Translations under genes and position numbers: made by a program | Part shown: positions 2,335-56,949 of the stretch, piece by piece | Position numbering within the stretch: position 1 is the stretch's first letter | Layout of the letters: each line of letters opens with the position of its first letter | Notes under the pieces: generated by a model | Database searches by the model: none | What the model was told of the DNA's origin: nothing | What the model saw: only the letters and a program-made list of their open reading frames with translations | NCBI RefSeq assembly: GCF_033473495.1 | Contig: NC_088941.1 | Span: 1,488,001-1,552,000, forward strand | Direction: 5' to 3' | Source: Cercospora beticola | Lineage: Eukaryota > Ascomycota > Dothideomycetes > Mycosphaerellales > Mycosphaerellaceae | DNA length: 64,000 nt

Positions 2335-2910
2335 TCAGCCACCCTTCTTTCGGCCGTACACCGAGTCAGGATATCTCCCACCAGATGCCTTATGATTCAT
2401 CAGGAGTTCGATTGGCCAACAAGCAGTCCGCATCGAGAAAGCATCTTCGAAATAATTCGGCAAATTTTCCGGAAGAACTTCTTGGAGGTTTGGTTCGAAC
2501 TTCACCATCATCTCGTGAACTCCTGGCAGGAGCTCTTTCTCCCGCCACGTATCGTCGGAGAACATCTGTCTTCCGATGGCAATTCGGTCGGCCTCATCGA
2601 GTTTAGTGTGCGTATCATGGTTCTGGACATACTTCGGCATTGGCGACTTCCTCTGCCGCACTTCTGCCAACACACTCTTGATGCCTTGGTTGTAGTAGAT
2701 GTTGCGCAGCATCTTCACTTGGTCGACTTCCATCGGCACACCCAATGACAGCAACGTGTTGTGCTTGAAGAGATTGATGAACTCAGTCTTCTCCTTTTTG
2801 CCCAGTGTGGCTCTCTCTGTATCGTTCGTGAAATCAATGGTCCAGCTTGGCGTGGCGGCGGAGTGCATGTGCCAATGTGAATGTGCTAACACAGCGAATG
2901 CGTTTGCCAT
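2335..2910 (-). CDS. Hypothetical protein, 191 aa
   Basis: A single-exon frame with a true ATG at 2910 encodes 191 residues and ends in a Gly/Lys-rich tail. The protein is mixed alpha-like, charged and free of low complexity, which favours real coding sequence over a shadow frame. There is no signal peptide, membrane segment or motif that I recognise. It sits between the broken DUF7580 fragment and the mucin-like gene, both poorly conserved, so this may be a lineage-specific gene. Additional exons upstream (2911-3240) cannot be excluded, because a short minus-strand frame exists there but could not be joined with convincing splice sites. Function unknown. Confidence 0.45.
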   Translation of the reverse strand: MANAFAVLAHSHWHMHSAATPSWTIDFTNDTERATLGKKEKTEFINLFKHNTLLSLGVPMEVDQVKMLRNIYYNQGIKSVLAEVRQRKSPMPKYVQNHDTHTKLDEADRIAIGRQMFSDDTWREKELLPGVHEMMVKFEPNLQEVLPENLPNYFEDAFSMRTACWPIELLMNHKASGGRYPDSVYGRKKGG

Positions 2911-3445
2911 TTACGTCCGTCGTGAGAAAAGGACATACCCATTCATTGCTACCAGTCGCCGGTATATCGCCCAGGAAGGTGCGATTTGTGACTGCAGCTG
3001 TCACTCCAGACTCTCATTTCACATGCCGCTGCGATCTATGCTCAGTTCGTTGGCATTCTCACCAGCAGATCTCTTCAGTCTCGTCGCTTGAACGTCCTCG
3101 ATCGCTGATACTGTCGAACTTGATGTCCATGCAAGCGTTGTCCGCGGTGAGAAACCCTCGTTCGCCGTTTTCTGCCATCCTGTTGGGAGCTTCGCGCTTG
3201 CAACACGCGCCTTGTGAGGATCGTAAATTTGTAGAATCAAAAGGAGTGTTTCTCGCCGTAGAGTCCAGACGATGCCACTGTATTAGAGAAGTATATTCGA
3301 AAACTTGTATTCAGAAAGGCTGAGACAGTCGGGATCGGCCCCATCCATATATTCTGCTGAGCACTTCCGCTCCCTCCACAAAGATCTTTATCAAGCAAAC
3401 AGCATCATGCTTCCACAGCATCTCAGTACGTACGCACCAAGCTAC
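2911..3445. other. Intergenic stretch
   Basis: No supported gene. A 73-codon minus-strand frame at 3019-3240 has no recognisable feature. Confidence 0.4.
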
Positions 3446-5526
3446 TTAGACAGCTTGAAGTCTGTCTCCAATGAGCTTGCGACGCTGGTGTGGCCGCTTT
3501 ACCCCTTTGTACACGTCGAAAACTCTTTCCAAATCCCTCTTGGCCGATGCGGGTTGAACAGTACAAAAACCGTCGTTAACGGAGGCGCATAATCTCGCTC
3601 CTACACCTTGGCCACAAGCGCCTGAACAATCAAGGGCACAAACTTCATCCGTCGCCGTGCAATCGCCGTCAGTGTTGCAGGGCTCGCAGGTCGCCCCACC
3701 GGCACATCTAGCCGCCGCATTACTTACCGGTTGGAAACAAAAGCAGTCATCTGAACCGCAGAGAGCAGTTCCACCGTTGCCACAGATCGCGCAAGTTGGT
3801 ACAGGTGGAGCCTGGATGAGTTTAGCTGATATTCGTATCACTCAGCTGCAAAGAGGAATCTACTCACACTCGAGCTGGTCGTAGTTGAAGCAGTGGTCTG
3901 TTCTTGTCAGCATTTGATCATGAATTGGGCAATTCCTAGCTGTCTCTCACGGTCATAGAGGGAGTAGTGCTATTTTGAATCAATTAGCCTCGTAACATCA
4001 AATTCTGCAGCATTCCACGAACCTGGGCGTAGTGCTCGGTGTCTTTTTCACTTTTGTTAGCATCAAGACATGCATTAGAATGTTTGGGGGCGTACTGTAG
4101 ACGGCGTTGTGCTATTTCGAGATAATCAGCCTCACATATTAAATTCTGCAGCGTTTCACAAACCTAGGCGTAGTGCTCGGAGTCTTTCGCGCCTGTTGTT
4201 AGCATGAAGACATGTATGAGAATGTTCAGAAGCGTACTGTAGACGGTGTGGTGCTATTGTGATTCAGTTAGCTTTATAATGGCAATCTCTGTAGCATTGA
4301 ACTTGCCTCGGTGTGGTTGACGGGGTCTGACGCGTCTTCGTTAGCATTGAGTCATATAACAGACCGTTCAGAGGCTCACTGTTGATGGAGTGGTGCTAAT
4401 TTGAATCAGTCAGCCTCACAATCTCAAATTCTGCAGCCGTCCACAAACCTGGGCGTAGTGCTCGGAGTCTGTTGTGATTTGGTCAGCATTGAATCATATA
4501 ACATATCGATTCTCGGCGGTCTCACAGTTGAGGGAGTGGTAGAGGGGGTCTGAAATGGAAGGTCAGCTATGCAAAATCAAGTAATGAAGCCGGAGATAGA
4601 AGGCATACAGTTGTCGTGGTAGTCGTGGTCGTAGTGCTGGTACTGATGACTCTGGCAGCGACGTTGCCTGGGAGAACAACCAGTCTGTCGTTCACTCTCG
4701 AGAAGAGCGTGCAGCCGTTAAGACCTAGAGCCTCCTGCGAGTTCAGAGCAACGCATGCTGTAAGGGCGTCACAATCCTCCTGGCATTCTTCAAGCGGCGT
4801 CAACACGGCACGATGTCTGAGGCGGCGGCCGCCGCCTCCGACACCAGGGTTTGCGATAATGTCTCCTGTGAAAGCTACGTCACATCGGATGAAATACGTT
4901 TTGGATCCAGTACCAGTTGCTTGGACGGGACAGTCGGTAGTGGTTGTGCTCGTCTGACACAATTAGTACTGAATCAGCCAATCGAGTAGTATCGATCGTC
5001 TCTCACCGTTGTTTCTGTGGTCGTAGTGCTGCTAGTCGTGGTGCTCTCGCTGCTAGTCGTGGTGCTGCTAGTCGTGGTGCTGCTAGTCGTGGTGCTATCA
5101 GTTGTCGTGGACGATGAGGAAGTAGTGGACGATGAAGTTGACGTGGTGACTGGTGTGGTTGTCGCAGTCTAATTGAAAAAAAAAAAAAAAGAGCAACGTT
5201 AGTCTCTATCGTTGCCAACAGCACAAGAGCCGTTGGAAGCAAAAGCGAACATACCGTAGTGCTCGTCGACTTAGAAGTAGACTTGGTAGTCGATTTGCTA
5301 GTCGTGGTGCACTTCGTAGTCGTCTTTGGCTTTCAATGCTCCATGCGGGATGCCTCAGGTTGCACCGCTGCCTTGGGTTCCTGCATTTCTTGCCATGCAA
5401 ACTTACATGCCATGCAAACAGGTCATTCCGTGATGAAGTCTCAGATAGAGAGGCTGTATCACTTCTAGTCGAAGTTTTTCCAGGCGAGATGATGAACGCA
5501 GTACGCCGACAGTCGAAAGGGAAGTC
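3446..5526 (-). CDS. Mucin-like Ser/Thr-rich, Cys-rich protein built from many micro-exons (5' end unresolved)
   Basis: Reading the minus strand with GT-AG splicing (one GC-AG) gives a continuous all-phase-consistent chain of about 15 exons: 5407-5526 (partial), 5255-5329, 5007-5168, 4609-4953, 4526-4549, 4449-4468, 4380-4395, 4307-4326, 4238-4253, 4164-4183, 4096-4111, 4023-4042, 3951-3969, 3868-3897 and 3446-3811. In order it encodes a Lys/Ser/Thr-rich stretch, a long Thr/Ser run, a PAN/Apple-like cysteine segment with ECQEDCDALTAC and GCTLF motifs, a poly-Thr run, repeated TPST units, and a C-terminal cysteine-rich module with about 18 Cys. This is the layout of an O-glycosylated secreted or wall-associated protein. 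No ATG with a signal peptide was found in frame upstream of 5526, so further 5' exons or a broken start remain possible. Function unknown. Confidence 0.65.
3951..4468 (-). repeat. Tandem ~142-bp exon-intron repeat, 4 copies
   Basis: Unit starts at 4023, 4164, 4307 and 4449 give periods of 141, 143 and 142 bp. Each unit holds, on the minus strand, a 20-nt exon, a 52-54-nt intron, a 16-nt exon (19 nt in the last copy) and another 53-54-nt intron. The 36 exonic nt of a unit spell TPSTTPSTTPST in phase. The introns keep AG acceptors; donors are GTTTGT, GTTCGT, GTACGC, GTGAGC, GTGAGA and, at 4301-4306, GCAAGT. A diverged 24-nt exon (4526-4549, TPSTTPST) and a 30-nt exon (3868-3897) flank the array and extend the pattern. 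Confidence 0.85.
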
Positions 5527-56712: not shown

Positions 56713-56758
56713 CAAACTCTTTCTACCGTCGCGCGTGGCCCCTTGGATGCATAATCAT

Positions 56759-56767
56759 ATATAATTA
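56759..56767 (+). promoter_or_regulatory. TATA-like element upstream of the tRNA gene
   Basis: TATATAATT lies about 35-43 nt before the tRNA 5' end. In fission yeast and some other fungi Pol III tRNA genes need an upstream TATA; here it might help compensate for an interrupted box A. Inference. Confidence 0.35.
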
Positions 56768-56812
56768 TGAGTTAGCTCCTGCCATCCAATAGGAGTTCCC
56801 AGCCCTCTTAGC

Positions 56813-56866
56813 GTACGCGTCAACCCCTGCTCCTTCACTTTGGAATTTTCACTAACATCTTCACAG
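56813..56866 (+). other. 54-bp spliceosomal-intron-like insertion in the tRNA D-stem
   Basis: It lies between tRNA positions 11 and 12. It starts GTACGC, has CTAAC at 56852-56856 preceded by a pyrimidine-rich TTTTCA, and ends TTCACAG. The same GTACGC donor is used by two introns of the mucin-like gene in this window. Its length equals that of ordinary introns here. The junction TAGCGTACGCG partly recreates a box A. An ACCCCTG in the insertion (56823-56829) is complementary to CAGGGGT in the D-loop (56868-56874). Confidence 0.75.
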
Positions 56867-56891
56867 TCAGGGGTAGAGCGCATCACTAGTA

Positions 56892-56904
56892 CTACAACAG
56901 TGAC
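56892..56904 (+). other. Canonical 13-nt tRNA intron (position 37/38)
   Basis: CTACAACAGTGAC separates A37 from A38. Position matches the site cut by the eukaryotic tRNA splicing endonuclease. Confidence 0.8.
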
Positions 56905-56944
56905 ATGATGAGGTCATTGGTTCGAATCCAGTAGAGGGCATCGC

Positions 56945-56949
56945 TTTTT
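56945..56949 (+). terminator. Pol III oligo-T terminator
   Basis: Five consecutive T on the plus strand, four bases after the discriminator base of the tRNA. Confidence 0.75.

Follow-up and report, generated by a model that had tools for sequence, protein, structure and literature searches.

A tRNA-Thr(AGT) gene of Cercospora beticola with a putative spliceosomal intron in its D stem, and similarly interrupted tRNA genes elsewhere in the genome

The tRNA-Thr(AGT) gene and its paralogues

The window, by which we mean the whole stretch of 64,000 nucleotides of Cercospora beticola DNA analyzed here, contains a tRNA-Thr(AGT) gene that is interrupted twice, once in the D stem by a 54 nt segment with the features of a spliceosomal intron and once in the anticodon loop by a 13 nt intron of the ordinary kind (Table 1). 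An earlier note, made from the sequence alone, had reported both inserts and had proposed that their removal leaves a tRNA with all stems paired, and that the longer insert has GTACGC, CTAAC and CACAG in the order and spacing of a U2-type intron. The sequence and coordinates of both inserts are as it described; the three motifs are present, with CTAAC ending 10 nt before the end of the insert, and the RNA without the two inserts folds into a full cloverleaf. Exact removal of the GT-AG segment gives the unique top cloverleaf score among 3457 distinct products of 30-90 nt deletions in the window gene, and the exon/intron pattern of the gene has one match in the window and none in 100 shuffles; a chance match was rejected on the strength of these two results.

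Table 1. Features of the tRNA-Thr(AGT) gene, with positions counted from the first letter of the window.
Feature	Position	Strand	Remarks
TATA-like sequence ATATATAAT	56757..56765	+	start lies 45 nt before the mature 5' end
Exon 1	56802..56812	+	acceptor 5' strand, positions 8-9, D-stem bases 1-2, first half of A box
Spliceosomal-type intron	56813..56866	+	54 nt, at 11/12
5' splice site of the 54-nt intron	56813-56818	+	GTACGC
Branch-site-like motif of the 54-nt intron	56851-56856	+	ACTAAC, within CACTAAC
3' splice site of the 54-nt intron	56864-56866	+	CAG (end CACAG), 10 nt past the branch motif
Exon 2	56867..56891	+	remaining D arm, anticodon stem 5' strand, anticodon AGT
Ordinary intron, tRNA-endonuclease type	56892..56904	+	13 nt, after position 37
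Exon 3	56905..56940	+	anticodon stem 3' strand, variable loop, T arm, acceptor 3' strand, discriminator A
B box GGTTCGAATCC	56919-56929	+	in the T arm, within exon 3
TTTTT	56945..56949	+	4 nt past the mature 3' end

ARAGORN calls no tRNA in the window, and the Rfam tRNA model gives the gene a score of 15.5 bits where the cut-off is 29, so that the gene would go unnoticed in annotations made with such tools. The gene is adjoined by a Sec8 reading frame that is 100% identical to a C. beticola protein across 93% of its length; Sec8 was the one gene of this genome in which an mRNA intron was sought for comparison, and no clean intron was obtained from it.

The earlier note had proposed an alignment of all tRNA-Thr(AGT) genes, and for this genome (36.07 Mb in 10 contigs, with the window on contig C7) three were found to compare. 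When the 3' part of the window gene was used as query, three genomic places were found, namely the window gene itself, one on C4 and one on C2. Both of the latter copies have an insert at the same 11/12 point, GTATGT...CACTAAC...ATAG (53 nt) in one and GTAAGC...GCTAAC...GCAG (54 nt) in the other, and all three Thr(AGT) genes found have a GTANGN...CTAAC...AG intron at the identical site. The pattern TAGCGTNNG...CTAAC...AGTCAG has three matches in the genome, all of them tRNA-Thr(AGT) genes, and the reversed control pattern has two. Mature sequences are identical at 72/72 positions across the three copies, and the intron cores are 42-50% identical, where shuffled cores average 33-42%; the divergence of the introns, beside exons that are the same, makes the introns look old and the exons look held constant. 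No uninterrupted Thr(AGT) gene was found in the genome search. The suggestion that the window gene might be a fresh casualty of intron insertion does not survive this comparison, since 3/3 copies are interrupted and their introns have diverged around identical mature sequences. What was found are the attributes of a functional tRNA-Thr(AGT) (a cloverleaf, the anticodon AGT and conservation among copies), and neither the decayed exons nor the intact paralogue that would mark a tRNA pseudogene. Exact scans of viral, bacterial and archaeal DNA collections for related tRNA pieces gave 0 matches.

GT-AG introns in tRNA genes across the genome

Of the options raised in the earlier note, that of a spliceosomal-type intron lodged in a gene for Pol III finds support, and the arrangement recurs: in the C. 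beticola genome, 21 tRNA genes were found to hold 24 GT-AG introns of 51-61 nt outside the anticodon loop. A search with the Rfam tRNA family, in which 62 of 905 first-look candidates were scored, gave at least 44 matches, and a reading by eye of these 44 identified 14 with GT-AG introns at sites other than the anticodon loop, together with three of mitochondrial type. Seven interrupted genes (three Thr, two Phe, one Cys and one Asp) came from other searches. The interrupted genes are three for Thr(AGT), three for Val(AAC), three for Phe (one with two introns), two for initiator Met, two for Cys (one with two introns), two labelled Met(CAT) (L033 and L049, one with two introns), and one each for Ser(TGA), Ala(TGC), Asp(GTC), Leu(CAG), Leu(CAA) and Arg(CCT). 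The identity of the two labelled Met(CAT) is uncertain because an uninterrupted elongator-Met-like gene, L008, exists. Intron positions are 4/5, 11/12, 14/15, the D loop, 25/26, the variable region, 53/54, the T loop and the 3' acceptor strand, and the regions hit are the acceptor stem, the D arm, the variable region and both the stem and the loop of the T arm. Among the 44 Rfam matches no non-canonical insertion without GT-AG was seen, setting aside L043 and L044, two long-intron genes in which ARAGORN calls anticodon-loop introns of about 100 nt.

Other tRNA loci were encountered in these searches. L049 (G000:C4:1794122-1794824) combines two GT-AG introns, at acceptor 4/5 and at the T-stem/acceptor junction, with a 48-nt anticodon-loop intron. 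L007 (G000:C7:2750480-2750551) has the anticodon GAT, which is unusual for a nuclear Ile tRNA, on an elongator-tRNA-Met-like body. tRNA genes that share one body type, GGGG.TGTGGTCCAATGGTAAGAT...CTGGCC.GCTCCA, are clustered at G000:C7:1261541-1262737, C8:747298-749136 and C5:2689076-2689696, and have variable anticodon-loop introns, the longest called by ARAGORN being about 104 nt. AT-rich tRNA genes of mitochondrial type are present in a contig of nuclear size, at G000:C2:3502591-3503121, and represent either a mitochondrial insert or an assembly join. Further tRNA-like pattern matches include C8:1415354, C1:3936001, L057, L070 and L076.

The intron sequences were compared as a set of 27, of 49-61 nt, composed of the 24 in tRNA genes and three in a U6-like gene described below. 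These were first chosen by eye and GT/GC...AG was required at extraction, so that the invariance of GT and AG is by construction; G at +5, which was not a selection criterion, is nonetheless present in 27/27, and the end is YAG in 25/27. Of the 25 tabulated introns, 22 have a YTRAY motif 9-13 nt ahead of the 3' splice site, and the two that were added later have one, by eye, at 11 and 12 nt; the motif is lacking in the 4/5 introns of both Cys genes, which have CTTAC instead, and in the Asp intron. The U2-type attributes found are therefore GT...AG with a fungal 5' splice site, a branch motif (tested in the looser form YTRAY), and the restoration of a continuous functional sequence on removal. 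For fungi, the branch motif is given as RCTRAY, 6-36 nt before the acceptor, in a section of PMC5832005.

How well the boundaries are defined was assessed by cloverleaf scoring of roughly 2,800 to 5,300 deletion products per intron. The GT-AG product is the unique best for 14 of the 24 tRNA introns and has the top score for 16; another deletion outscores it in the other eight, six of which are in the D loop region or variable region, where the score hardly constrains the choice. ARAGORN returns the expected anticodon for 18/21 genes spliced in silico versus 0/21 unspliced, the misses being Thr on C2 (called Ala, by a shift of its anticodon intron), Cys on C7 and Leu(CAA). For the 18 single-intron genes, the call is correct in 16/18 with the deletion at the GT-AG site and in 83/900 with displaced deletions of the same length, these 83 being spread over 12 genes. 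Two assignments are weakened by residual mismatches: Ala(TGC) retains one U-U acceptor mismatch after GT-AG removal and scores better with a non-GT-AG deletion, and Leu(CAA) by eye retains an anticodon-stem mismatch after splicing.

It might be argued that the inserts in the D arm, T arm and acceptor stem are instead non-canonical introns cut by the tRNA-splicing endonuclease and sealed by tRNA ligase, as in Cyanidioschyzon merolae (a red alga), nucleomorphs and archaea. Introns of that sort have precedent in those groups (in parts of PMC4090602 and PMC3978253), and many of the interrupted genes do also have ordinary anticodon introns. The sequences nevertheless make this most improbable. The central helix of a bulge-helix-bulge, 4 bp formed by the start of the intron with the 3' exon and bounded by 3-nt bulges, is complete in the exact register in 0/27 introns, so that an intron of this class was rejected, and with a relaxed register it is seen in 2/27 versus 4.1 expected from shuffled introns (the central helix alone being tested). 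A G at +5, a branch motif at fixed distance and a YAG end are spliceosomal signals for which an endonuclease that reads structure has no need, the inserts are not at the 37/38 position of fungal nuclear tRNA introns, and at 51-61 nt they exceed the insertions of 3-24 nt described for the Guillardia theta nucleomorph in a passage of PMC4090602.

Exon conservation and transcription

For Thr(AGT), Phe, initiator Met and Cys all copies found are interrupted (three, three, two and two, respectively), with 3/3 Phe genes hit at 53/54 and 2/2 Cys genes at 4/5. An exact search of the genome for the uninterrupted Phe T arm, TGTTCGATCCACAG, gave 0 matches, and no intact Phe, Cys or initiator-Met gene was found in genome searches that score the best candidates. 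One such search missed the third Phe gene, which was later found by a pattern search, and unseen intact copies of other tRNAs are therefore not absolutely excludable. Phe and Cys each have a single isoacceptor in eukaryotes and the initiator Met is unique; given this, and as no intact copy was found, a complete assembly would require the interrupted genes to work.

The exons themselves have the appearance of sequences under constraint. Mature sequences of three Val genes are identical (74/74), as are those of two Phe genes (73/73); the eight bases that differ between the two initiator-Met genes form four compensatory pairs, the Phe copies are one compensatory pair apart, and the Cys copies differ by two pairs and one loop base, with no one-sided stem changes among the initiator-Met, Phe and Cys paralogues. 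In both Phe and initiator Met the two halves of a changed acceptor pair flank a spliceosomal-type intron. From these patterns we infer that the mature tRNAs of the interrupted genes are used in the cell.

Dead copies or assembly errors, with the needed tRNAs supplied by intact genes that escaped notice, would offer another account, and uninterrupted copies are indeed available for two tRNAs. Val L009 is an uninterrupted, close and non-identical paralogue of L045, L047 and L050, in which the intron comes after GTGTAGT in two genes and after GTGTAGTTG in one with the same 74-nt product, and Asp allows an empty-site comparison of uninterrupted and interrupted close paralogues (L054 against L062). 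That the genome search scored best candidates and missed one gene also speaks for it. We consider this account very unlikely all the same, as no intact Thr(AGT), Phe, Cys or initiator-Met gene was found, the exons are identical or compensated in their stems in a manner unexpected of dead genes, and an assembly error is hard to reconcile with paralogues on different contigs that have the same insertion site and different intron sequences.

Transcription of the interrupted tRNA genes by Pol III is likely, to judge from their flanking and internal signals. The TTTTT beyond the window gene is likely a Pol III terminator, and ATATATAAT is a possible upstream Pol III promoter element. When the 21 tRNA genes are taken with the U6-like gene, whose distance was measured from the end of the stretch used, a run of at least four T lies within 25 nt downstream of 15/22; the first such run is at 35-51 nt in 5/22 and is absent within 60 nt in 2/22. 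TTTT or longer occurs in one of the 27 introns (that of the window gene) as compared with 4.8 in shuffles, 2% of which are as low, and five T in 0/27 as compared with 1.4. Over a span of roughly 80 nt upstream (less for two genes), TATA-like strings by a loose pattern occur in 14/22 genes versus a mean of 6.8 in shuffles, and 0/500 shuffles reach 14. Inspection by eye against the box consensus indicates that in initiator Met and Val the start of the intron continues a near-consensus A box, and that in Phe the end of the intron and the exon recreate a AGTTCGATCC box. The intron of Thr(AGT) divides the A box and leaves the B box intact, so that transcription must either tolerate the split or use upstream elements.

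Splicing is normally coupled to Pol II, and the introns could be spliceosomal in transcripts of that polymerase, for example longer read-through RNAs that are later trimmed to tRNAs; this would link them to Pol II-coupled splicing. The norm of coupling, the split internal promoter boxes of some genes (the A box in Thr) and the two genes with no T-run within 60 nt would fit such an origin. There is little to recommend it, however, when runs of at least four T follow 15/22 genes within 25 nt and are scarce inside the introns, when Thr keeps its B box intact and the AGTTCGATCC box is recreated in Phe, and when the intron-bearing U6 and U3 genes of fungi are Pol III genes (according to parts of PMC10484740 and PMC5832005); we regard it as a slim prospect.

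We note that a U6-like snRNA gene (L088, 1453-1709; G000:C7:2731422-2731678) has three GT-AG introns of 49, 50 and 52 nt, and that its spliced core reads ACAGAGAAGATTAGCATGGCCCCTGC, which we take to be the canonical U6 core. A second U6, at C2:3146896-3146997, is uninterrupted. Two 5S rRNA genes of 120 nt (47 of 1696 candidates were scored) are likewise uninterrupted, and invasion by introns is thus not seen in every Pol III gene.

A proposed maturation route and its relation to known systems

The window Thr(AGT) gene is, with high probability, a functional nuclear Pol III gene whose precursor carries both a spliceosomal and an endonuclease intron, and is one of at least 21 tRNA genes with introns of the spliceosomal type; this reading draws on sequence comparisons. 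Pol III would transcribe the interrupted genes, the spliceosome would excise the U2-type introns (54 nt in the D stem of Thr(AGT)), the tRNA-splicing endonuclease would excise the anticodon introns (13 nt in Thr(AGT)), and the precursors would undergo ordinary end maturation. The broader proposition, which we hold a little less firmly and still think probable, is that the spliceosome serves as an obligatory tRNA-maturation machine in C. beticola and perhaps its relatives, with essential tRNAs (initiator Met, Phe, Cys and Thr(AGU)) apparently existing only as Pol III precursors that bear U2-type introns, often with an endonuclease intron as well.

In the standard account, as presented in part of a 2026 review (PMC13149111), the spliceosome takes no part in the removal of nuclear tRNA introns; against this, essential tRNAs of C. 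beticola appear to need both the spliceosome and the endonuclease. If this is true, translation depends directly on splicing and, given the U6 gene with three introns, the splicing machinery depends on itself. It would show the spliceosome acting at large scale on short, highly structured Pol III transcripts, and would make the gain and loss of introns testable in 72-nt genes of known structure. It would also explain why tRNA genes are missed or misnamed in annotation, as ARAGORN fails on 21/21 of the unspliced genes. Short insertions in the D and T arms of eukaryotic tRNA genes were supposed to be mostly pseudogenes in a passage of a 2014 review (PMC4090602), a view that deserves rechecking. 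The earlier note knew of no fungal tRNA gene with a GT-AG intron, and we too found no spliceosomal intron in a tRNA gene, fungal or other, in searches of the open-access PubMed Central literature.

Several known systems resemble parts of what is described here. Eukaryotic tRNA introns outside the anticodon loop have been reported in nucleomorphs and a red alga (parts of PMC4090602 and PMC3978253), and the ectopic introns of C. merolae, nucleomorphs and archaea are similarly found at many non-canonical positions, among them both the D arm and the T arm and, for some archaea, the acceptor stem as well, with several per gene (passages of PMC4090602). Archaeal and C. merolae introns differ in that they are linked to the tRNA endonuclease and to bulge-helix-bulge motifs (same source, in part), whereas those of C. 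beticola have GT-AG and branch motifs and no such helix; Guillardia nucleomorph introns differ by their length of only 3-24 nt.

Introner-like elements of Dothideomycetes belong to the same fungal class and, as spliceosomal introns that multiply, represent a possible origin (parts of PMC4457414). They differ in that the hosts described in parts of PMC4457414 are protein-coding genes, the word "tRNA" occurring 0 times in its main text, and in their near-identical copies at many sites; for the core of the window intron no second copy was found in the genome. The introner-like origin that had been suggested for the window intron is accordingly not borne out, its 35-nt core occurring once in the genome with up to three mismatches allowed.

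Introns of mRNA type in non-coding RNAs are also known from ascomycete and lichen rDNA and from Rhodotorula. In yeast, spliceosomal introns of lichen origin were removed from rRNA transcribed by Pol I (parts of PMC8527467), and papers on such introns in rDNA and in the Rhodotorula U2 snRNA gene are cited in PMC2586383; the hosts there are rRNA and U2 and not tRNA, and the polymerase for rRNA is Pol I. The U3 and U6 RNAs were, in the relevant part of a 2017 paper (PMC5832005), the only small structured RNAs then known to be often interrupted by introns, and the fungal U6 and U3 introns are alike in that they are short GT-AG introns with RCTRAY branch motifs in Pol III genes for small structured RNAs (parts of PMC5832005 and PMC10484740). 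They differ in that the hosts in C. beticola are tRNAs, for which the known route of intron removal in fungal nuclei is by endonuclease and ligase.
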